Below are positions 29,035-46,427 of a stretch of DNA of 55,820 bases, piece by piece. The position numbers were made by a program, and so were the translations under genes. Under the pieces are notes generated by a model. The model was not told the DNA's origin. It did not search any database and was given only the letters and a program-made list of their open reading frames with translations. Position 1 is the stretch's first letter, and each line of letters begins with the position of its first letter. The DNA lies in assembly GCA_016931955.1 (NCBI GenBank), contig JAFGDV010000045.1:1-55820 (forward strand). Reading direction: 5' to 3'. The stretch is from Candidatus Altarchaeota archaeon (lineage in GTDB: Archaea; Altiarchaeota; Altiarchaeia; IMC4; QMZM01).

Positions 29035-29094
29035 TTTGGGATAAATGTCTTAAATGTATTATATTAGATGGATTCACCTTAAAAATATTATACC

Positions 29095-29652
29095 ATGAAG
29101 ATTATAGTAGCCGTAACCGGGACCTCTGGGGTGATATTGGCTGGAAGGCTTCTGGATAGCCTGAAAAAACATGAGACCTTTCTCGTGGTCTCCGAGACGG
29201 CTAGGAAGGTCGCTGAATACGAGGATGTGAGCATCGAGGCCATGGAAAGACTGGCAAACCACGTCTATGCGGAGGGCGAGCTTGATGCGGACATCGCCAG
29301 CTCCTCTAATCCAGTGGATGCCATGGTGGTGATACCTTGTTCTATGAAGACCTTGTCCGCTATAGCCAACGGATTCTCCAGTAACCTGATAACGAGGTCG
29401 GCGGAAAACGTCTTGAAGACGGGCAGGAAGCTGGTTGTTGTTCCAAGGGACACCCCTCTGAGCCTTGCAGCGATCAACAACATGAGAAAGCTTAGGCTTG
29501 CCGGCGCCTTGATCGTTCCGCCGAACATGGCATACTACTTCAAGCCCAAGAAGCTGGACGACGTTACCAACTTCTTTGTCGGAAAGGTCCTGGATTCATT
29601 GGGTTTAGAGCATGATCTATATAGGAGATGGGTGGTTGAGGATGAGCCTTAG
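29095..29652 (+). CDS. ubiX: UbiX-type flavin prenyltransferase
   Basis: Joins a dimethylallyl group to FMN to make prenyl-FMN, the cofactor of UbiD-type decarboxylases. The 185 residues show IIVAVTGTSGVILAGRLLD, VVSETARKVAEYE, VVIPCSMKTLSAIANGFSSN, VVVPRDTPLSLAAINNM and VPPNMAYY, all characteristic of the family. First gene of the archaeal mevalonate operon; the UbiD-like gene starts 11 bases before its end. Dimethylallyl phosphate, the usual donor, is close to the products made by this same operon, so cofactor and pathway are linked. An A/T-rich box (CTTAAAAATATTATA) lies directly upstream. Confidence 0.93.
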   Translation: MKIIVAVTGTSGVILAGRLLDSLKKHETFLVVSETARKVAEYEDVSIEAMERLANHVYAEGELDADIASSSNPVDAMVVIPCSMKTLSAIANGFSSNLITRSAENVLKTGRKLVVVPRDTPLSLAAINNMRKLRLAGALIVPPNMAYYFKPKKLDDVTNFFVGKVLDSLGLEHDLYRRWVVEDEP

Positions 29653-30898
29653 GGAATTCTTGGATGAGGTGAAACCCCTTGTCATCAATGACGAGGTTGA
29701 TCCCTATCTGGAGGTGGCGAGTATTCTCCATAGAAATGAAGACTGCGTGGTTTTATTTAAGCGTGTCAAGGGTTCAAGATACTCTATTGTTGGTAACGTA
29801 TGCAGCTCGCGTGAGAATTTCAGCCGAGCCATCGGCGTAGAGAACAAAAAACTGCTGGAAAAGATCAGCGAAGCCATGGAGCGGATAGGAGAAATAGACG
29901 TCATCAAAAAGGGCGCATGTCAGGAGGTGGTCGAGAAAAGCGTTGATCTCTCAGAGATCCCGATTCCGACCTATACGAGCAAGGACATGGGGCCCTACAT
30001 CACCTCGGGTGTTTTTATCGTCGAAGACCCTGAATACGGGTTAAACGCAAGCTTCCATCGAGCTTCTCCAATATCACAGAACCAACTTGTTGCGAGGATC
30101 TGTCAGAGAAACCTCTTCAGGTATCTCAGGCGAGCCGGCGGCGAACTGGATGTGGCAATATGCATTGGACTACATCCCTCTGTGCTGTTGTCTGCTGCCA
30201 TCTCAACGGACATAACCGTTAACGAGCTCTCAATAGCTAACAACCTGAGAAAACTGGGGCTGGTGAAGTGCAAGACCAATGACCTGCTGGTTCCTGCTGA
30301 TTCAGAGATCATATTGGAGGGCCGGATAACGAAGGAAAAACACGCTGAAGGCCCATTCCCTGACATAACCCGGACCCTTGACATCATAAGGGATGAGCCC
30401 GTGATCGAGATAGACTGCGTAACCCATAGAAAGGACCCCATCTATCAGGCCCTCCTCCCCGCATCCAGGGAACACGAGCTCTTGATGGGCATGCCCCGTG
30501 AGCCCGTAATCTACAAAGAGGTGAACAAGGTCTGCTCCTGTAAGGATGTTTTATTGACCCATGGGGGTTGCTCGTGGCTTCACGGCATAGTCCAGATAGT
30601 GAAGAGATCTCCTGAAGACGGTAAAGCAGCTATCGAAGCTGCTTTAAGGGCTCACCCCAGCATGAAACACGTGGTTGTGGTAGACGAAGACATAGACATA
30701 CATAATCCAGATGAGGTGGAGTGGGCTGTTGCGACAAGATTCCAAGCAGGTGAGGGCTTGATCAGAAAACATGAGCATGGAAGCAGCCTTGACCCCAGCA
30801 GTTCAGAGGATAGGATGACCTATAAGCTGGGCCTTGATGCAACCATCCCATTCAATAAACCCAGGGATAAGTTCAAAAAGATATCCATAGGCGAATAG
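29642..30898 (+). CDS. UbiD-family decarboxylase, probable anhydromevalonate phosphate decarboxylase
   Basis: Decarboxylates trans-anhydromevalonate 5-phosphate to isopentenyl phosphate with prenyl-FMN. The 418-residue frame from ATG 29642 carries YTSKDMGPYITSGVFIVEDP, NASFHRASPIS (flavin/metal region), KHAEGPFPDITRT with the conserved Glu, and a C-terminal VVVVDEDIDIHNPDEVEWA. A GTG or other start up to 30 bases earlier is possible but overlaps ubiX more. UbiD homologues act on many aromatic or unsaturated acids; the assignment rests on direct coupling to ubiX and to the AcnX, IPK and IDI-2 genes, the known archaeal mevalonate arrangement. Confidence 0.88.
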   Translation: MSLREFLDEVKPLVINDEVDPYLEVASILHRNEDCVVLFKRVKGSRYSIVGNVCSSRENFSRAIGVENKKLLEKISEAMERIGEIDVIKKGACQEVVEKSVDLSEIPIPTYTSKDMGPYITSGVFIVEDPEYGLNASFHRASPISQNQLVARICQRNLFRYLRRAGGELDVAICIGLHPSVLLSAAISTDITVNELSIANNLRKLGLVKCKTNDLLVPADSEIILEGRITKEKHAEGPFPDITRTLDIIRDEPVIEIDCVTHRKDPIYQALLPASREHELLMGMPREPVIYKEVNKVCSCKDVLLTHGGCSWLHGIVQIVKRSPEDGKAAIEAALRAHPSMKHVVVVDEDIDIHNPDEVEWAVATRFQAGEGLIRKHEHGSSLDPSSSEDRMTYKLGLDATIPFNKPRDKFKKISIGE

Positions 30899-32101
30899 AT
30901 GGAATTAAGCAAAGAAGAGAAACTGATGTTTGAGGGTGTGAGGGGTGAAGGAGCCCGTAAGGCTATGGAGATCCTCGTCGCCTTGGCTGAGATATACAAT
31001 GCTGAACGCATGATTGAGGTAAAGAGCGCACAGATAGCTGGTGTGAGTTATAGGAACCTCGGCGATGCCGGCTTGGAATTCCTTGAGGAGTGGGCTGCTC
31101 AGGGGGCTAAGGTCAGGGTTCCATCAACATTGAATCCCGCTGGCATGGATTTACGGAACTGGAGGATTCTGGGCTTTCCTGAGGGGTTCGCTGAGAAACA
31201 GTTGAGGATCATCAAAGCCTACGAAAAAATGGGTGTGGATCCAACATGTACTTGTACTCCCTACCTGGCAGGCAATCTTCCAAGGTTTGGAGACCACATC
31301 GCCTGGAGCGAGTCTTCCGCTGTTTCTTTCGCTAACTCTGTCATCGGTGCTAGAACCAACAGGGAGGGCGGTCCTTCGGCTCTCGCAGCAGCCGTCGCTG
31401 GTAGAACCCCACTCTATGGCCTCCACCTTGACGAGAACCGTCTTGCCGACTTCATCGTTGAAGTTCGCTGTCCCCTCAAATCACTCTCTGATTTCGGCGC
31501 CCTCGGCTATCTTGTAGGTAAAAAGATCAGCGGCGGTGTTCCATTCTTCAGGGGAGTCAAGAAACCTAGTACGGATCGGCTTAAGGCCTTGGGCGCCGCC
31601 ATGGCCGCTTCTGGTTCTGTAGCCTTGTTTCACGTGGACGGCGTCACACCGGAAGCCCAGAAAAAGAACATGCTCTCTGAAAACGCCAAAGTCCTTGTCA
31701 TCGATGACCTAAGTGGAGGCTATGATGCATTGAATTCTCAGGGAGAAGTGATCGATTTTGTGGCATTGGGCTGTCCTCACGCATCCATAGATGAGATTGA
31801 GGTGATTGCTGATCTTCTGAGGGGTAAAAGGGTTAAGTCCACGTTGTGGATTACCACCTCCTCTGCGGTGAAGGACCTCGCTGAGAAGAGGGGTCTCCTC
31901 AACATGATAGAGGAAAGCGGCGCCCATGTTGTGGCTGACACGTGCATGATCGTCGCCCCTATAGAGGAGCTCGGCTTTAAAAAGATGGCGACAAATGCTG
32001 CTAAAGCGGCTTTCTATGCGCCCTCCCACTGTAAAACCGATGTTCGATTTGGTTCGCTTGAGAAATGCATTAATGCTGCGGTAAGCGGCAGGTGGGAGTG
32101 A
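30899..32101 (+). CDS. phosphomevalonate dehydratase large subunit (AcnX family)
   Basis: Large subunit of the Fe-S enzyme dehydrating mevalonate 5-phosphate to anhydromevalonate phosphate. The 400 residues belong to the AcnX branch of the aconitase superfamily: VSYRNLGDAGLEFL, RVPSTLNPAGMD, PTCTCTPYLAGNLPRFGDHI (Cys117, Cys119), ESSAVSFANSVIGARTNREG, ALGCPHASIDEI (Cys292) and VADTCMIVAP (Cys349). Three of these Cys probably hold the iron-sulphur cluster. It follows the UbiD gene with no gap and overlaps the small subunit start by one base (TGATG). It was once annotated as a predicted aconitase or hydroxyproline-related enzyme; the operon argues for the mevalonate role. Confidence 0.9.
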   Translation: MELSKEEKLMFEGVRGEGARKAMEILVALAEIYNAERMIEVKSAQIAGVSYRNLGDAGLEFLEEWAAQGAKVRVPSTLNPAGMDLRNWRILGFPEGFAEKQLRIIKAYEKMGVDPTCTCTPYLAGNLPRFGDHIAWSESSAVSFANSVIGARTNREGGPSALAAAVAGRTPLYGLHLDENRLADFIVEVRCPLKSLSDFGALGYLVGKKISGGVPFFRGVKKPSTDRLKALGAAMAASGSVALFHVDGVTPEAQKKNMLSENAKVLVIDDLSGGYDALNSQGEVIDFVALGCPHASIDEIEVIADLLRGKRVKSTLWITTSSAVKDLAEKRGLLNMIEESGAHVVADTCMIVAPIEELGFKKMATNAAKAAFYAPSHCKTDVRFGSLEKCINAAVSGRWE

Positions 32102-32484
32102 TGGAGCTCATCGGCAGGGTGATAAAGGACGGTAGAGTGGATGGAACCGCTTTAGTATCTTCAGAACCGATTTCCTTCTTCGGCTGCGTTGATCCTGAAA
32201 CAGGGGTTGTCACAGAGAAGGGCCACGTCCTTGAAGGCTTAAGCATCAGGGACTCAATCCTTGTGTTCCCGCATGGTAAGGGCTCTACTGTGGGTTCATA
32301 TGCGCTCTACAGATTAAAGAAGAATGGTGTGGCGCCTAAAGCCATCATAAACCAGGAATGTGAGCCTATTGTAGCTGTGGGCGCCATAATCTCTGACATA
32401 CCTTGCGTTGACAAAGTAGATATCTCGAAGATTAAGACAGGTGACAGCCTGCAGATCGAGGGTAATAAGGTCAGGATATTATAA
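32101..32484 (+). CDS. phosphomevalonate dehydratase small subunit (AcnX swivel domain)
   Basis: A 127-residue swivel-domain partner of the AcnX large subunit, together forming the active dehydratase. Conserved stretches are VSSEPISFFGCVDPETG, GKGSTVGSYALYRLKKNG with the substrate-binding Ser, and INQECEPIVAVGAIISDIPC. Two-subunit AcnX enzymes are usual in archaea, while some bacteria have the two parts fused. I choose ATG 32101, which overlaps the large-subunit stop by one base; a GTG three codons earlier is possible. The IPK gene starts eight bases after it ends. Confidence 0.92.
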   Translation: MELIGRVIKDGRVDGTALVSSEPISFFGCVDPETGVVTEKGHVLEGLSIRDSILVFPHGKGSTVGSYALYRLKKNGVAPKAIINQECEPIVAVGAIISDIPCVDKVDISKIKTGDSLQIEGNKVRIL

Positions 32485-32491
32485 AGTAACG

Positions 32492-33289
32492 ATGGACGAA
32501 CTAGTAATATTGAAGCTGGGCGGCTCGGTCATAACCAAAAAGAGCGACAACAAACGTGAGGTAGACCGCGTAAATCTGAGGAGGCTTTGCCAGGAGATCG
32601 CTGAAGCCATCGATGAGAAAAGATTCAGGCTCTTAGTAGTGCACGGCGCCGGCCCATTCGGCCACGTGCCCGCCCAAGAATATGGATTAGATAAGGGTTT
32701 AAGATCTGGAAAACAGTTGAAGGGTTTCTCTTTAACCCGTCAGTCGATGGAGGAACTGAACTCTTATGTAGTGGATGCCTTGCTCGAAGCCGGAATTAAT
32801 GCGATCAGTTATCAGCCTTCAGCAGTAGGTGTCCTTAGTGGGGGGAAACTCATATATTTTCCAACAAAGGTGTTAGCGTATCTCTTAGAGATGGACATGG
32901 TCCCCGTTTCCTATGGGGATGTTCTCGTCGATGAAAAAACCGGCGTCGGTATCCTATCAGGAGACCATCTAGTCCCCTATCTAGCGAGGAAGCTGCATGC
33001 CAGTAGAGTGATCATAACAACTGATGTTGACGGCATCTTCGACGTGGATCCTAAGGGTGGGGGTAGCTCTGAACTGATCAAGGAGATCACTCAGAGAAAC
33101 ATGGCTTCACTGAGTGTCGGCAAATCTCGTGGGACTGACGTTACGGGCGGCATGAAGAGGAAGCTTGATGAACTACTCAGGCTTGCTGGAGAAGGCATCA
33201 ACTCAGAGGTCATCTCTGGTGTGAAACCAGGGATCCTGAAGAGAAGCCTTCTCGGGGAAAAAAACCTGGGGACATTAATTAGGGAGTAA
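32492..33289 (+). CDS. ipk: isopentenyl phosphate kinase
   Basis: Phosphorylates isopentenyl phosphate to isopentenyl diphosphate with ATP. The 265-residue amino acid kinase fold protein has LKLGGSVITKK (ATP phosphate loop), VVHGAGPFGH with the His58 that marks IPK and contacts the substrate phosphate, SYGDVLVDEKTGVGILSGD, and TTDVDGIFDVDP. The frame is open to 32441, but ATG 32492 gives the proper family N-terminus and lies just after the small-subunit gene. Fourth enzymatic step of the operon and specific to the archaeal-type mevalonate route. Confidence 0.93.
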   Translation: MDELVILKLGGSVITKKSDNKREVDRVNLRRLCQEIAEAIDEKRFRLLVVHGAGPFGHVPAQEYGLDKGLRSGKQLKGFSLTRQSMEELNSYVVDALLEAGINAISYQPSAVGVLSGGKLIYFPTKVLAYLLEMDMVPVSYGDVLVDEKTGVGILSGDHLVPYLARKLHASRVIITTDVDGIFDVDPKGGGSSELIKEITQRNMASLSVGKSRGTDVTGGMKRKLDELLRLAGEGINSEVISGVKPGILKRSLLGEKNLGTLIRE

Positions 33290-33305
33290 TCGCATACTAT
33301 CTAAC

Positions 33306-34295
33306 ATGACAGACGAAAGGAAGAAAGACCATCTCAGGATCTGCGTGGAAGAGGATGTTGAATCCGGTAGCACAGGCTTAGAAGATGTAAGGCTCACCCA
33401 TATGGCCCTTCCGGAATTAGACTTTGATGACATCTCCATGGAGACCAGATTCTTGGGGAAAGCCCTAAAGTATCCCCTGATCCTGGAGGCTATCACTGGG
33501 GGTGTTTCTAAGGCGAAAAAGATAAACCATGACATTGCCGGTATTGCAGAGGAATTTGGCATCGGCTTTGGTGTTGGAAGCCAGAGGATGGCATTAGTAG
33601 ATCCTGAACTGGCTGACACCTACAGGGTTAGGAATTTTGCCCCGGATATTTTCTTGATCGCGAACCTTGGCGCAGTTCAGCTGAACTACGGTTTTGGTCT
33701 TGATGAATGCAGGAAAGCGGTTGATATGATCGAAGCCGACGCTCTCGCATTACATATTAATCCATTGCAGGAGGCCGTTCAACCTGAGGGTGACAGAAAC
33801 TTCTCCGGCCTGATCGAGAAGATCAACTCTGTTTCAGAAAAACTTGGGAAACCGGTCATAGCCAAATGCGTCGGCTCAGGCATCTCCTATGAGACCGCGA
33901 AGAGGCTCAGGATTTCTGCAATCGACGTCGGCGGCTCTGGGGGCACCTCTTGGAGCCTCATAGAAGGCCTCCGCGGTGATAGTAAGACTAAGAAGATCGG
34001 GGAAACATTCGCTGGGTGGGGGATTCCAACTGCCGAATCGATCAGGGAGGTATCCAGGCTTAATGTTCCAGTCATCGGCTCGGGCGGGATCCGCACGGGT
34101 TTGGATGCAGCCAAAGCTATTGCATTGGGTGCGGATTGTGTTGGCATCGCGTTACCCGTACTAAGGGCTTGGTCTTCTGGTGGTAAAAAAGAAGTGAGAA
34201 AATTCCTGGATCGATTCATAACGGAGTTGAGGATCGCCATGTTCCTCTCAGGTTCTAAGAATATTAAGGAACTGAGGGGGAAGATCAAAGGGTAG
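33306..34295 (+). CDS. fni: isopentenyl-diphosphate delta-isomerase, type 2
   Basis: FMN- and NAD(P)H-dependent enzyme interconverting IPP and DMAPP. The 329 residues show RKKDHLRIC at the start, RLTHMALPELDFDDI, ITGGVSKAKKINHDIAGIA, FGIGFGVGSQRMAL, HINPLQEAVQPEGD, DVGGSGGTSW and IGSGGIRTGLDAAKAIALGA, the standard FMN and substrate segments. It closes the pathway that began with AcnX. It ends with a TAG stop; the same frame stays open behind the stop and runs into a short membrane peptide (34341-34505), treated as a separate gene because TAG is also the normal stop of several neighbours. Confidence 0.95.
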   Translation: MTDERKKDHLRICVEEDVESGSTGLEDVRLTHMALPELDFDDISMETRFLGKALKYPLILEAITGGVSKAKKINHDIAGIAEEFGIGFGVGSQRMALVDPELADTYRVRNFAPDIFLIANLGAVQLNYGFGLDECRKAVDMIEADALALHINPLQEAVQPEGDRNFSGLIEKINSVSEKLGKPVIAKCVGSGISYETAKRLRISAIDVGGSGGTSWSLIEGLRGDSKTKKIGETFAGWGIPTAESIREVSRLNVPVIGSGGIRTGLDAAKAIALGADCVGIALPVLRAWSSGGKKEVRKFLDRFITELRIAMFLSGSKNIKELRGKIKG

Positions 34296-34507: not shown

Positions 34508-34957
34508 ATGCGGTCTAGTTATTTCTTTGTATTCTTGGTCTCTGTTGTATTTTTCTGCGGCTGCGTTGACTTGGATGCGCACTTGACTGGCATCCCCGTA
34601 GTCGAACAGAATCAAACTACTGGTTGGCAGCCGGAGCCGGGTAACGGATCTAATGTCTACTTCTTCTACAGTCCCTCATGCCCTTACTGCATAAAGGAGA
34701 AGGCGTTTCTTGAGGAACTTGAGGGCAGATACCCTGATGTCAGGATAGACTACATAATAGCTTCTGAGAACTGGGATCTCTTCGCTGAGGTGTGTGAGTG
34801 TTATAACACTACTACTTCAGGCGTTCCGAGAACCTTCATAGGGGATAAGGCATTCATCGGGTTTTCATCCCAAGACTGCGACCTCAGGTTTAATGAAGCC
34901 TATAGGGCCTATATCGGCTGCCCGAACCAGATTGAGAATGCAGTAAATGAAATTTGA
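34508..34957 (+). CDS. thioredoxin-fold lipoprotein
   Basis: A 149-residue exported protein. The signal segment FFVFLVSVVFFCGC (about 6-19) ends in a lipobox-like Cys19, so it is probably lipid-anchored outside the cell. After a short linker comes a thioredoxin fold with VYFFYSPSCPYCIKEKAFLE (redox pair Cys58/Cys61) and the cis-proline loop TTSGVPRTFIGD (Pro107). Additional Cys at 96, 98, 125 and 139 may form disulphides. Probably a thiol oxidoreductase handling disulphides of surface proteins, which would suit the Cys-rich protease at 4.0-6.6 kb. Its end overlaps the next gene by 11 bases. Confidence 0.75.
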   Translation: MRSSYFFVFLVSVVFFCGCVDLDAHLTGIPVVEQNQTTGWQPEPGNGSNVYFFYSPSCPYCIKEKAFLEELEGRYPDVRIDYIIASENWDLFAEVCECYNTTTSGVPRTFIGDKAFIGFSSQDCDLRFNEAYRAYIGCPNQIENAVNEI

Positions 34958-36203
34958 CTTCTTTGACAGGTTCTTCGGTAAGGAGACAAGGACTGAGGAG
35001 GTTATCGACTCAATCAGGCTGCGAGCCTGGCTTGAGAAAAAGATCAGCTCAAGGAAGCATGAAGTCTTTAGTGGATCCAAGCAGCTGATAGAGGATGTTT
35101 TCCGTAACATTGAGGGGGTGCGGAACACAACCCTTGGTCTTGAAAAACTGGAATGCCATGAGGGGATGCACCGGAAAGCCCGGAAGATAATCTCCTCCTC
35201 TAAGCCGAGGTTTATCCGAGGGGTGTTGGATATTCTCTCTACTTTGGAAAAGAAGCCTCAAGGCTATGAGGAACTTATCGTGTTTAATGAGAATCTTCTA
35301 GCCGCTATTTCTTCGTTGGCTAAGTTGAGTACTGGAGAGGGCAGGTATCTTCCGATGGCCTTTGGTGAGGAAATAGATGCCATGAAGAGGGAATCCAAGA
35401 GGCTGGTTGAGAACGCTGGGGAACTGAAGAACCGAATAGGTTCCGACGTGGCCCTGCTCTCAAAGGCTATGGATTCACTGAATGAGTTTGATGGCCTTGG
35501 AGATGAACTGATGGACTTGGATTCCCAGAAGTCTGAAGTGCTGGAAAAGATCAATACATGCCTAGGTGAGGTGTCCGAGCTTGAGAATGAACTTGATTCG
35601 CTCCGTGTGGGAGAGGAGTTCAAGGAACTGGGGAAAACAGAGGGGGAACTAGAGAACGTTGGTGAGGAATTGGAGGGTATGGAATCCTTAGTCTATAACA
35701 GCCTTAACCCGTTGAAGAGGCCTTTGAGGAAGTTCAGGAAGTCCGCAGAGGTTGGGGAGTGCACTGAAATGCTTAAATTGATTGATTCCTTCCTGCAGGA
35801 TCCTGTAGACTTTTTTCTCTCAGAGGATTCAGGCAGCTTAGAGAAAATGCTTTCTGGAGTCAAAGGGTTAGAATTTAGGCCGAAGGACAGGGATAAGATT
35901 CTTTCTAGGATAGAGTCTGCTTCGAGGATTGACCGAGGTGATCTGCGGGATAGGTATTCTAGGCTTTCTTCTGTAAGGGAAGAACTGAAGAAAAAGATAG
36001 CGTCTTTCTCGATTTTGGAGAAAGAGAAGAAGATTGTTGAAGACATAGAAACCGTTGAGAGGAGGATTAAGGATATGGAGGAGGAACTTCACAGGATAGA
36101 CAGGAAGGGTGAGGAGGTCAAGGATAGGATATCCTCGCTCAGAGAGGAAATAGAAGATATAATCAACGAAACCAAAGACTGCAGGATAAAGATAAGATGG
36201 TAA
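34947..36203 (+). CDS. coiled-coil protein of unknown function
   Basis: A 418-residue soluble, highly charged protein with no recognised family. An N-terminal part (about 1-140) is helical but not obviously coiled coil (FDFFDRFFGKETRTEEVIDS). Residues about 150-250 and 330-410 have heptad-like patterns, e.g. VSELENELDSLRVGEEFKEL and ETVERRIKDMEEELHRIDRK. No membrane segment or signal. It starts 11 bases before the end of the thioredoxin-fold lipoprotein gene and so is translationally coupled to it. Perhaps a structural or membrane-associated scaffold; that is a guess from architecture. Confidence 0.6.
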   Translation: MKFDFFDRFFGKETRTEEVIDSIRLRAWLEKKISSRKHEVFSGSKQLIEDVFRNIEGVRNTTLGLEKLECHEGMHRKARKIISSSKPRFIRGVLDILSTLEKKPQGYEELIVFNENLLAAISSLAKLSTGEGRYLPMAFGEEIDAMKRESKRLVENAGELKNRIGSDVALLSKAMDSLNEFDGLGDELMDLDSQKSEVLEKINTCLGEVSELENELDSLRVGEEFKELGKTEGELENVGEELEGMESLVYNSLNPLKRPLRKFRKSAEVGECTEMLKLIDSFLQDPVDFFLSEDSGSLEKMLSGVKGLEFRPKDRDKILSRIESASRIDRGDLRDRYSRLSSVREELKKKIASFSILEKEKKIVEDIETVERRIKDMEEELHRIDRKGEEVKDRISSLREEIEDIINETKDCRIKIRW

Positions 36204-42624: not shown

Positions 42625-45474
42625 ATGTCTGAGTACGAAGTAGAGCTTTTCCGTGAGCAGGGTTTCGACAGGAGACGCTGTCAACTATGCAATAAATTCT
42701 TCTGGACCCTTGGGGGGAGGGAGACATGCGGTGAACCGCCCTGCGAGGAATACTCTTTCATAGGAGACCCTCCGACAAAGAAGAGCATGGACCTCTCTGA
42801 GATGCGTGAATCCTATCTCTCGTTCTTCGAGAAACACGGCCACAAGAGGGTTCCACGTTATCCTATTGTTGCGCGCTGGAGGGACGACATATTCTTCACC
42901 ATCGCTTCGATATCCTGTTTTCAGCCCTGGGTATTGAATCGGACAATTGAGCCGCCTGCTAATCCTTTGGTGATTAGCCAGACCTGTCTGCGCTTTAATG
43001 ACATAGACAATGTGGGGAAAACTGGGAGGCACTTAACTGAGTTTGAGATGATGGCTCACCACGCCTTCAACAGTGAAGAAAAATTTGTCTACTTCAAGGA
43101 TAGGACGGTGGAATTATGCCATAAACTCCTGCTTGATTTAGGGATTAACGCTGATGAGATTCAGTACATTGAGGCGGAGTGGTCTGGTGGCGGAAACTCT
43201 GGTCCCTGCTTTGAGGTAATCGTCCGCGGAGTTGAGTTGGCAACTCTAGTCTTCATGATGTACAGGGACACGCCCTCCGGGAGGGGGGAGATGGACATGC
43301 AGGTGGTGGACACAGGCTATGGATTGGAGAGGTTTGTCTGGATCTCTCAGGGCACCCCTAACGCCTATGAAGCAATCTTCGGCGACGTACTTGTAAGGCT
43401 TAAGGGGGAGGCGGATATTCAGGCGGATGACGGTCTTATGGCGGAGTACTCCAAGCTTGCTGGTATGATGAACGTTGAATCCAATGCGGATCTCAGGGTT
43501 CTGAGGGAGAAAGTGGCTAAACGCATGCAAGTGCCCTTGAAGGAGATCATAGAGAGGATCACTCCATTAGAGCACATCTATGCTGTATGCGACCATACCA
43601 GGGCGCTCATGTTTATGTTGAATGATGGCGGCATTGTCCCATCCAATGCCAAAGCCGGATACTTTGCAAGGCTTCTCGCAAGGAAAACCCTCCGCTCCCT
43701 GGATTCCTTAGGGCTCAGTTTTCCTCTGAGTGAAATCCTTGGCATGCAGATAGACTACTCCGGGAGAGACTTTCCCGAGCTGGCTGAGAACCGGGAAGAC
43801 GTCCTCAACCTAGTGGACGTGGAAGAGAAGAAATACAGGAAGACCATGGATAGGGGTAAAGGCATCGTCGGCAGGATCGATGCTGAATTGGGGGATAAAG
43901 GAGAAAATAGGATCAACACTGAGGAATTGATCCATCTCTATGACTCCCACGGCATCACCCCTGAGATCGTTGCAGAATTTTCCATGCTGAAGGTGGATAT
44001 CCCAGACGACTTCTATATCCAGGTTGCTGGTAGACACGAGAAACCTGAGCGAGAAGATGGGGTTGAGGGGGTAAGGGTTCCCAGGGTCGAGCCCACAGAG
44101 CTTGGCTTCTATGAGGATGCCTACGTCAGGGAGTTTAAGGCAAATGTTCTGAGGAAATTCAATAACAACATAATCTTGGATAAGACCTACTTCTATGCAG
44201 AGGGCGGAGGCCAGGAAGCAGATCATGGATGGATTGGCCCTCTTAAAGTGGTGGATGTTCAGAAGCATGGAAACGTGGTCCTCCATGGAGTGGAGGGCGA
44301 CCTGGGCAGGATAGGGGAGGGCGAGACGGTGGAGTGCAGCATAGACTGGAATAGAAGGCTTCAGTTAATGCAGCATCATACTGTGACCCATATAATAAAC
44401 GGCGCCGCTAGGAGGGTCCTTGGTAACCATGCTTGGCAGGCCGGCGCCCACAAGAGCGAGGAGCTTGGAAGGCTTGATCTAACGCATCATTCTAGGATTA
44501 CAGGAGAGGAGAGGGAGCAGATCGAAACCTTATCTAATAAAGTGATCGCAGAGAAGAGGCCTGTACAGATAAGCTTCATGGAGAGGGACAAGGCCGAAAA
44601 AAAATACGGCTTCAGGATCTATCAAGGCGGCGCTGTCCCTGGAGGGATCATCCGAATAGTGGACATCGTGGACTGGGATGTTGAAGCATGCGGTGGTATG
44701 CATTTCAAGAACACATCCGAGGTTGGTTATATAAGGATAACAGACATCAAGAGGATCCAGGACGGCGTCGTGAGGATAGAATACAAAGCAGGTGTAGCAT
44801 TGAAAGACCATGTGGCTGGGAGGGAGAAGCTTGCTGGAGAGATCGGCTTAGAACTCTCTGAGAGGGAGCTTCAAGAAATCGCAGAGATCTTCTCGGTCCA
44901 GGTTGCACAGCTCCCCAAGACGATAGAGCGTTTCAGGGGAGAATGGATCTCGCAGAAGGAGGAGTTGGAGGGGCTTTATGTAGCACTATCAAAGCTCATA
45001 GATGAGAGAAAAGAATCCATTCATGTTTATGGGGAGATGCCTTCAGGCGAGCCGGTGCAAGCGCATAAAAAACTCTTTGATGAGTGGAAGACTCAGAGAA
45101 AGGAGATAGAGGGTCTGAAATGTAAGATCCGGGAGGCGCTTAGTAGAAGACTGGATAGGAGATTTCAGTTAGATTACGTGGAGAAAGACGGCGTGAAAAT
45201 CGTCAAAGAATTGGTCTCCGGCTTGGACGTGAAGAACCTCATTGAGCTGGCTAAATCCACAACCAGGGAGAATTCCCTGCTTATTATCGCTAACACAGGG
45301 GATGGAAAAGCTAATATACTAGTCTATTCTAAGTCTATATTCAAGGCGGATGAGCTCGCTAAAAAACTATCGGAAAAACTTGGCGGCGGGGCCCACGGCG
45401 ATGCTGTGATGGCTGTTGGCGGCGGCTCTTCTGAGAACGTCGAGAAAATCCTGGAAGAATTTCAACTAGGTTGA
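42625..45474 (+). CDS. alaS: alanyl-tRNA synthetase, archaeal type
   Basis: Charges tRNA-Ala. The 949 residues begin with a metal-binding-like Cys cluster (CQLCNKFF, CGEPPC) typical of archaeal AlaRS, followed by the class II catalytic core with SFFEKHGHKRVPRYPIVARW, SQTCLRFNDIDNVGKTGRH (motif 2 region) and VDTGYGLERFVWI (motif 3). The editing domain has HHTVTHIINGAARRVLG and ACGGMHFKNTSEVG, zinc ligands for clearing Ser-tRNA. A C-terminal dimerisation domain ends with GGGAHGDAVMAVGGGSS. Full length and intact. The GGPP synthase gene starts two bases after its stop. Confidence 0.97.
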   Translation: MSEYEVELFREQGFDRRRCQLCNKFFWTLGGRETCGEPPCEEYSFIGDPPTKKSMDLSEMRESYLSFFEKHGHKRVPRYPIVARWRDDIFFTIASISCFQPWVLNRTIEPPANPLVISQTCLRFNDIDNVGKTGRHLTEFEMMAHHAFNSEEKFVYFKDRTVELCHKLLLDLGINADEIQYIEAEWSGGGNSGPCFEVIVRGVELATLVFMMYRDTPSGRGEMDMQVVDTGYGLERFVWISQGTPNAYEAIFGDVLVRLKGEADIQADDGLMAEYSKLAGMMNVESNADLRVLREKVAKRMQVPLKEIIERITPLEHIYAVCDHTRALMFMLNDGGIVPSNAKAGYFARLLARKTLRSLDSLGLSFPLSEILGMQIDYSGRDFPELAENREDVLNLVDVEEKKYRKTMDRGKGIVGRIDAELGDKGENRINTEELIHLYDSHGITPEIVAEFSMLKVDIPDDFYIQVAGRHEKPEREDGVEGVRVPRVEPTELGFYEDAYVREFKANVLRKFNNNIILDKTYFYAEGGGQEADHGWIGPLKVVDVQKHGNVVLHGVEGDLGRIGEGETVECSIDWNRRLQLMQHHTVTHIINGAARRVLGNHAWQAGAHKSEELGRLDLTHHSRITGEEREQIETLSNKVIAEKRPVQISFMERDKAEKKYGFRIYQGGAVPGGIIRIVDIVDWDVEACGGMHFKNTSEVGYIRITDIKRIQDGVVRIEYKAGVALKDHVAGREKLAGEIGLELSERELQEIAEIFSVQVAQLPKTIERFRGEWISQKEELEGLYVALSKLIDERKESIHVYGEMPSGEPVQAHKKLFDEWKTQRKEIEGLKCKIREALSRRLDRRFQLDYVEKDGVKIVKELVSGLDVKNLIELAKSTTRENSLLIIANTGDGKANILVYSKSIFKADELAKKLSEKLGGGAHGDAVMAVGGGSSENVEKILEEFQLG

Positions 45475-45476
45475 TA

Positions 45477-46427
45477 ATGGACTTCGATAGATTCAAGGAC
45501 AGGTTTCAGTTGATTGATGACCGGATCATGGAATGCCTGAGCGGGGAGCCGAAGAGGCTCTATGAAGCTTCCAGGCATCTGTCGAAGGCTGGCGGTAAGA
45601 GGATCAGGCCGCTCATATGCTTGCTCTCATGTGAAGCTGTTGGTGGAAAAGCGGATGAATGCCTTGAAACTGCTGTCGCAACAGAGCTCATACATACATT
45701 CACGCTAATACACGACGACATCATGGACAACGATGAGCTTCGGAGGGGTGTTCCGTCAGTGCATCAAGTCTACGGGGAAGCTACTGCCATACTCGCCGGG
45801 GATCTGCTCTTCTCCAAGGCCTTCGAAATCAGCAACCCGAAGGCGATGAATGTCCTGGCCAAGGCTGCATCCGACATATGTGAGGGACAGCAGATGGACA
45901 TATCCTTTGCTGAATCCAAGGTGGTGACTGAGGAGGAATATCTTGAGATGGTGCGTAAGAAAACCGCTGTGTTGATTCAGGCTGCCTCAGAATCTGGGGC
46001 GCTGCTGGGGGGAGGCAGCAAGGATGAGGTGAAGGGACTGTCTGTGTACGGTCTGAGCATTGGTATGGCATTTCAGATCCACGACGATGTCCTTGACCTT
46101 CTCGCAGACGAGGAAACACTTGGGAAACCCGTTGGGAGCGATGTCGTCGAGGGTAAGAGGAGCCTTATCGTGATAAAGGCGCTTGATAGCCTCAACAGGG
46201 GGGGGAGAGAAGAACTCTTAGGTATACTCGACAAGGAAACAAACACCCAGGAGGAGATTGCCCGCGCAGTGAGCTTGTTTGATGAAAGCAAGGCAATCAC
46301 TTACTGCAAGAACAAGGCGAAACACTTCATAATGAGTGCAAAAAAAGCCTTAGAACAGCTACCGAAAAGCGACGCAAAGAACGATCTGATGGAGATAGCG
46401 GACTTTATTGTCCAACGAAAGAAGTGA
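45477..46427 (+). CDS. geranylgeranyl diphosphate synthase (polyprenyl synthetase family)
   Basis: Condenses IPP with DMAPP-derived allylic diphosphates to make GGPP for archaeal membrane ether lipids. From ATG 45477 the 316 residues have GGKRIRPLICL (IPP site), the first Asp motif HDDIMD (80-84) and the second DDVLDLL in HDDVLDLLADEETLGKPVG. Phe75 stands five residues before the first Asp, a position where Phe limits products to about C20 in archaeal enzymes. It is the natural consumer of the isoprenoid operon at 29.1-34.3 kb. A TTG start two codons earlier would overlap alaS. Confidence 0.92.
   Translation: MDFDRFKDRFQLIDDRIMECLSGEPKRLYEASRHLSKAGGKRIRPLICLLSCEAVGGKADECLETAVATELIHTFTLIHDDIMDNDELRRGVPSVHQVYGEATAILAGDLLFSKAFEISNPKAMNVLAKAASDICEGQQMDISFAESKVVTEEEYLEMVRKKTAVLIQAASESGALLGGGSKDEVKGLSVYGLSIGMAFQIHDDVLDLLADEETLGKPVGSDVVEGKRSLIVIKALDSLNRGGREELLGILDKETNTQEEIARAVSLFDESKAITYCKNKAKHFIMSAKKALEQLPKSDAKNDLMEIADFIVQRKK

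Follow-up and report, generated by a model that had tools for sequence, protein, structure and literature searches.

The question raised by this locus is whether six neighbouring genes in a genome of the Altiarchaeota provide, as a unit, the lower mevalonate (MVA) pathway, and whether the cofactor enzyme at their head belongs to that unit in function as well as in position. The window, by which we mean the whole stretch of 55,820 nucleotides of Candidatus Altarchaeota archaeon that was analysed, contains six adjacent open reading frames at 29095-34295, all on the + strand, which encode UbiX, a UbiD-type decarboxylase, the large and small subunits of aconitase X (AcnX-L and AcnX-S), isopentenyl phosphate kinase (IPK) and type 2 isopentenyl-diphosphate isomerase (IDI-2). 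As read from the DNA, ubiX (29095-29652), the gene of the flavin prenyltransferase of prenylated FMN (prFMN) synthesis, overlaps ubiD (29642-30898, ATG start at 29642) by 11 bases, and there is no gap between ubiD and acnX-L (30899-32101). The gene of the small (swivel) subunit, acnX-S (32101-32484), overlaps acnX-L by one base when its ATG at 32101 is taken, an alternative start being the GTG at 32092, and ipk (32492-33289) follows after 7 bases when it is started at the ATG at 32492 (the mechanical reading frame begins at the GTG at 32441). The last gene, idi2 (33306-34295), is separated from ipk by 16 bases. The first-pass annotation, which had described six genes in a row with overlaps of up to 11 bases and gaps of at most 16, was correct in this respect. 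Directly 5' of ubiX, at 29035-29094 (+ strand), an AT-rich divergent intergenic region of 60 bases with a TATA-like sequence is presumed to be the promoter, and it resembles the corresponding stretch in several family members. From contiguity, strand and conservation we infer that the six genes form one probable transcription unit. Downstream of it lie a glutaredoxin-like gene (34508-34957) and a gene for a coiled-coil protein (34947-36203) that is kept in this place across the family, and a short-chain isoprenyl (GGPP-type) diphosphate synthase is encoded outside the operon, 11 kb downstream (45471-46427).

We are highly confident that the locus, as one probable transcription unit, codes for the lower steps of the archaeal (modified) mevalonate pathway, a known route. 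In the proposed route, PMDh (AcnX-L and AcnX-S with a [4Fe-4S] cluster) would dehydrate mevalonate 5-phosphate to trans-anhydromevalonate 5-phosphate, which AMPD, i.e., the UbiD protein with prFMN, would turn into isopentenyl phosphate; IPK would then yield IPP, and IDI-2 would convert IPP into DMAPP. The enzyme identities and this dehydratase/decarboxylase route, both proposed at first pass, are supported at the level of sequence by curated families and PDB matches. IPK scored 250.7 bits against the archaeal equivalog model NF040647 (IPPK_Arch, cut-off 120), matched PDB 3ll9 with E=1e-51 and has a conserved HGAGxFGH motif, and IDI-2 reached 409 bits against TIGR02151 (cut-off 281) and matched the isomerase 2zru with E=6e-78. 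The operon lies on contig C19 of a host genome (G000) of 1.55 Mb that is 92% complete. Mevalonate kinase (MVK) and HMG-CoA reductase (HMGR) are encoded on another contig (C23) and, therefore, the operon comprises the lower pathway only. The five GHMP matches in the genome were MVK, two shikimate-kinase-like and two beta-RFAP-synthase-like proteins; PMK, DMD, PMD and MBD were not among them, and because the genome is 92% complete, a classical enzyme could sit in the missing part. A check suggested along with the first reading thus returned a mevalonate kinase and neither a recognised diphosphomevalonate decarboxylase nor a full classical pathway. A second tight cluster was seen on C23 (5531-8852), in which the genes of HMG-CoA reductase, an isopropylmalate/tartrate dehydrogenase-like protein and mevalonate kinase abut.

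The UbiX protein itself is well defined, with 194.5 bits against TIGR00421 (cut-off 108.9), 201 bits against NF004685 and a match to the UbiX structure 6m8v (E=9e-50). Its residues E43 and S11, which correspond to the catalytic E49 and to S15 of the Pseudomonas enzyme (PaUbiX), are invariant among 21 homologues, and D119 (in PRDTPL) takes the position of PaUbiX Glu140, the proposed proton donor; Asp is found here in most Altiarchaeota relatives and Glu elsewhere, which, judged from the alignment, is a conservative change. F160 falls on the position of PaUbiX F181 (aligned to H164 of 1sbz and Q203 of 6qlg), and Phe occupies it in 19 of the 21 UbiX sequences collected. In PaUbiX, which is specific for DMAP, F181 appears to block DMAPP, and the use of DMAPP goes along with Gln or His in its place, even though F181 by itself is not fully decisive (PMC6541611). 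Because F160 matches F181, the UbiX of the operon is predicted to be probably a DMAP-using enzyme. It is the only UbiX over the cut-off in the genome, in which two further weak flavoprotein matches scored 19-20 bits, one of them being closest to the dihydromethanopterin reductase family. According to the genome search, the UbiD of the operon is likewise the only one, to which UbiX would supply prFMN, and with this UbiD as its single client, UbiX most likely serves AMPD alone. The proposal that the operon makes its own cofactor is reasonable and gains some weight from the finding that the genome has no second UbiD and no second true UbiX; for the rest, we infer a plausible loop, in which UbiX would form prFMN for AMPD from dimethylallyl phosphate that probably stems from what the pathway itself produces, which in turn would lead to IPP and DMAPP, so that the pathway's own C5 product would prime its decarboxylase. 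IPK acting in reverse, or a phosphatase, is a candidate source of the DMAP.

The position of UbiX might also have no functional meaning, the gene order being a frozen neighbourhood in which UbiX was simply inherited beside UbiD. The wider neighbourhood of the operon is also conserved in the family (Trm1, a TadA-like ATPase, the coiled-coil protein, TrmJ and a HerA-like protein), which means that synteny is slow to change here, and in one family member (G018) UbiX is located elsewhere. Against this, UbiX joins the cluster at differing positions in Micrarchaeota and Aenigmatarchaeota, downstream of AcnX-S in one locus (L025) and upstream of UbiD in two (L037 and L020), which suggests that linkage was selected for repeatedly or has been retained for long. 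We consider mere inheritance unlikely, although it is the alternative that retains the most weight. The comparison covered the neighbourhoods of 80 AcnX relatives in named genomes and of 20 more within the phylum, and because this sample was picked by similarity to the AcnX of the window, it surveys the Archaea unevenly. An identical six-gene order was found in L117 (68-76% identity), L119 (56-72%) and L120 (47-75%), and, on this comparative evidence, the arrangement is not due to chance. The full order is present in four genomes (G000, G016, G007 and G010), several other family members being cut by contig ends; UbiX lies beside UbiD in 11 of the 13 genomes of the window's family, was found in 9 of 13 DPANN loci and adjoins UbiD in several DPANN archaea.

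The view expressed at first pass that these genes are usually scattered in archaea did not hold. Clusters of UbiD, AcnX-L and AcnX-S, with or without IPK and IDI-2, are frequent and widespread among the loci compared, and in Bathyarchaeota UbiD, AcnX-L, AcnX-S, IPK and IDI-2 occurred together in all 22 loci counted, with MVK included in 21 and a GGPP synthase following in nearly all. The resulting cluster, MVK-UbiD-AcnX-L-AcnX-S-IPK-IDI2-GGPPS, has its five central genes in the same order as the operon of the window and, unlike that operon, contains MVK and GGPP synthase and lacks UbiX. This aligns well with the report that MVA genes usually occur in gene clusters and that the archaea-type route is dominant in Archaea, including most DPANN (PMC11052028). 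Aeropyrum pernix and Thermococcus kodakarensis do fit the scattered impression. They use the same key enzymes of the archaeal (modified) mevalonate pathway, with conserved PMDh ligands (PMC8184944, PMC10040528), but the locus tags of their AMPD and UbiX are distant from each other (APE_RS06980 and APE_RS05555; TK_RS04575 and TK_RS02520; PMC8184944), whereas in the window both genes are clustered with those of PMDh, IPK and IDI-2. According to Kanno et al. (2024), as cited in PMC13001223, the archaeal-type pathway also occurs in the Chloroflexota (Ca. Promineifilum breve). Like the window, Chloroflexota have archaeal-type MVA genes, three loci labelled as such having the order MVK-UbiD-AcnL-AcnS-IPK. 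The pathway is thus known and such clusters are common, and it is the inclusion of UbiX that is a feature of the lineage. Four genomes of the same class from another family (G001-G004, family f6) have UbiX, no AcnX over the cut-off, and a UbiD that is absent or only divergent; another MVA variant may be in use there. Thermoplasma-type genes have been mentioned for Altiarchaeota (PMC11052028).

The assignment of the UbiD protein to AMPD has to be weighed against the alternative that it forms with UbiX a decarboxylase pair for aromatic acids or other substrates, which only happens to neighbour AcnX, IPK and IDI-2. It scored 368 bits against TIGR00148 (cut-off 245), and its residues R156, E236 and D241 (CQR and EGPFxD motifs), which we take to be equivalent to the catalytic set of Fdc1, are kept in 74-75 of 75 UbiDs, mostly AcnX-linked. 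Its best PDB match is 6h6v/6h6x, presumably HmfF, a furan-dicarboxylate decarboxylase, and in the tree HmfF (6h6v) is sister to the AcnX-linked clade, which is what speaks for such a pair. The protein itself, however, falls inside the clade of AcnX-linked archaeal UbiDs (FastTree support 0.98) and not among the aromatic decarboxylases tested, a grouping that had been considered from the outset; AnInD, ShdC, E. coli UbiD and four archaeal paralogues branch further out. UbiD also adjoins AcnX-L in Bathyarchaeota, DPANN, Hadesarchaea and some Chloroflexota loci, and because the genome has a single UbiD, the pathway would have no decarboxylase if this one were taken out. The aromatic reading is rejected on the tree, and overall we regard a pair unrelated to its neighbours as very improbable. 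The solved UbiDs used as references in the tree are all non-AMPD enzymes, and the assignment as AMPD is made by linkage to PMDh and by clade.

The AcnX subunits scored 538 bits against PF04412 (large subunit, cut-off 31.5) and 179 bits against NF003046 (small subunit, cut-off 163). The closest solved structure to AcnX-L is the AcnX/PMDh of T. kodakarensis (7cnr_A, E=4e-118), and AcnX-S matches 7cnr_B (TK1248) with E=6e-39. As in that enzyme (TkPMDh, AcnX type IIb), the large and small (swivel) subunits are separate, which is a heterodimer architecture. C119, C292, C349, E138 and K369 correspond to Cys110, Cys283, Cys342, Glu129 and Lys361 of TkAcnX, which have been named as its Fe-S ligands and active-site residues (PMC8184944, PMC10040528), and they are kept in nearly all of 99 sequences. 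TkAcnX is treated as a mevalonate 5-phosphate dehydratase (PMC8184944), and mutagenesis of the A. pernix PMDh supports the holding of the [4Fe-4S] cluster by three cysteines (PMC10040528). This residue set is necessary and insufficient, because AcnX homologues outside pathway clusters carry it too; likewise, AcnX similarity alone does not prove function, because some Chloroflexota homologues with 54-63% identity sit in loci where other pathway genes were not found. Together with the match of both subunits to the NCBIfam hydroxyproline dehydratase model, which is far too weak for its cut-off (345 and 71 bits, where 700 are required), this would leave room for a hydroxyproline enzyme in place of PMDh, the proline-pathway case raised at first pass, but the nearest structure agrees in heterodimer and ligands, unlike the fused proline enzyme, and AcnX is linked to UbiD, IPK and IDI-2, so that we reject this reading on the structure matches as very improbable.

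With PMDh and AMPD retained as the preferred assignments, the comparison exposed a gap elsewhere. An archaeon that relies on AMPD would be expected to require prFMN. UbiX was not found in 20 of the 23 cluster-carrying Bathyarchaeota genomes, including the chromosome records CP070714.1 and CP070730.1, and was present in the remaining three (G052, G057 and G058). In a wider draw of 101 Bathyarchaeia genomes (the class of G057) that were at least 90% complete, a recognisable UbiX was absent in 70 and over the cut-off in 31. UbiD was detected in 56 of the 65 UbiX-less genomes listed, i.e., in at least 56 of the 70, and its catalytic residues are intact in the UbiX-less loci too. UbiX has been reported in Bathyarchaeia genomes from an estuary, where it was read in terms of aromatic degradation (PMC8329499), and its occurrence therefore varies by lineage; we found no statement of a UbiX gap in Bathyarchaeia in the literature. 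In the genomes of three Chloroflexota loci (L011, L015 and L017), which have UbiD in the MVA cluster, a genome-wide search gave no UbiX over the cut-off, in contrast to the genome of the window, and yielded CoaBC-like matches only, plus AfpA in one. AfpA, a UbiX-like flavoprotein, was over the cut-off in 31 of 56 UbiX-less and 6 of 24 UbiX-bearing Bathyarchaeia genomes (Fisher p = 0.015, relatedness ignored). As a general replacement for UbiX in Bathyarchaeia it was rejected, because no AfpA over the cut-off was seen in 25 of the UbiX-less genomes. An extra gene of the cluster was considered as well, and the conserved downstream neighbours (GGPP synthase, glutamyl-tRNA synthetase, SRP19 and ribosomal S8e) included no candidate. 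It is possible, and we suggest it tentatively, that the UbiX-less lineages make prFMN with a synthase not yet recognised, have an AMPD that works without prFMN, or take the cofactor up.

The operon itself is of modest interest, and the UbiX gap that its comparison exposed is of more. The operon offers a compact, clonable gene set from which the lower archaeal mevalonate route could be rebuilt along with the enzyme that makes its cofactor, and no assay of the pathway from this lineage was found in the open literature searched. It also provides a reference point, a UbiX with exactly one possible UbiD client, as opposed to Bathyarchaeia that have the client without UbiX; this contrast in UbiX and UbiD content makes the supply of prFMN in archaea directly testable.

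The trees of the PMDh large subunit and of UbiD do not agree. In the AcnX-L tree, the family of the window groups with Chloroflexota (support 0.82) and the other Altiarchaeota group with Bathyarchaeota (midpoint root; L010-L018 and L123-L133). Conflicting with this, members of both Altiarchaeota groups fall into one clade of 20 with a support of 1.0 in the UbiD tree. These topologies hint, with moderate support, that PMDh may have been exchanged between lineages. Two contigs labelled as Culexarchaeum (L008) and Planctomycetota (L009) have an AcnX near the Altiarchaeota/Chloroflexota group, for which misbinning or transfer is possible.
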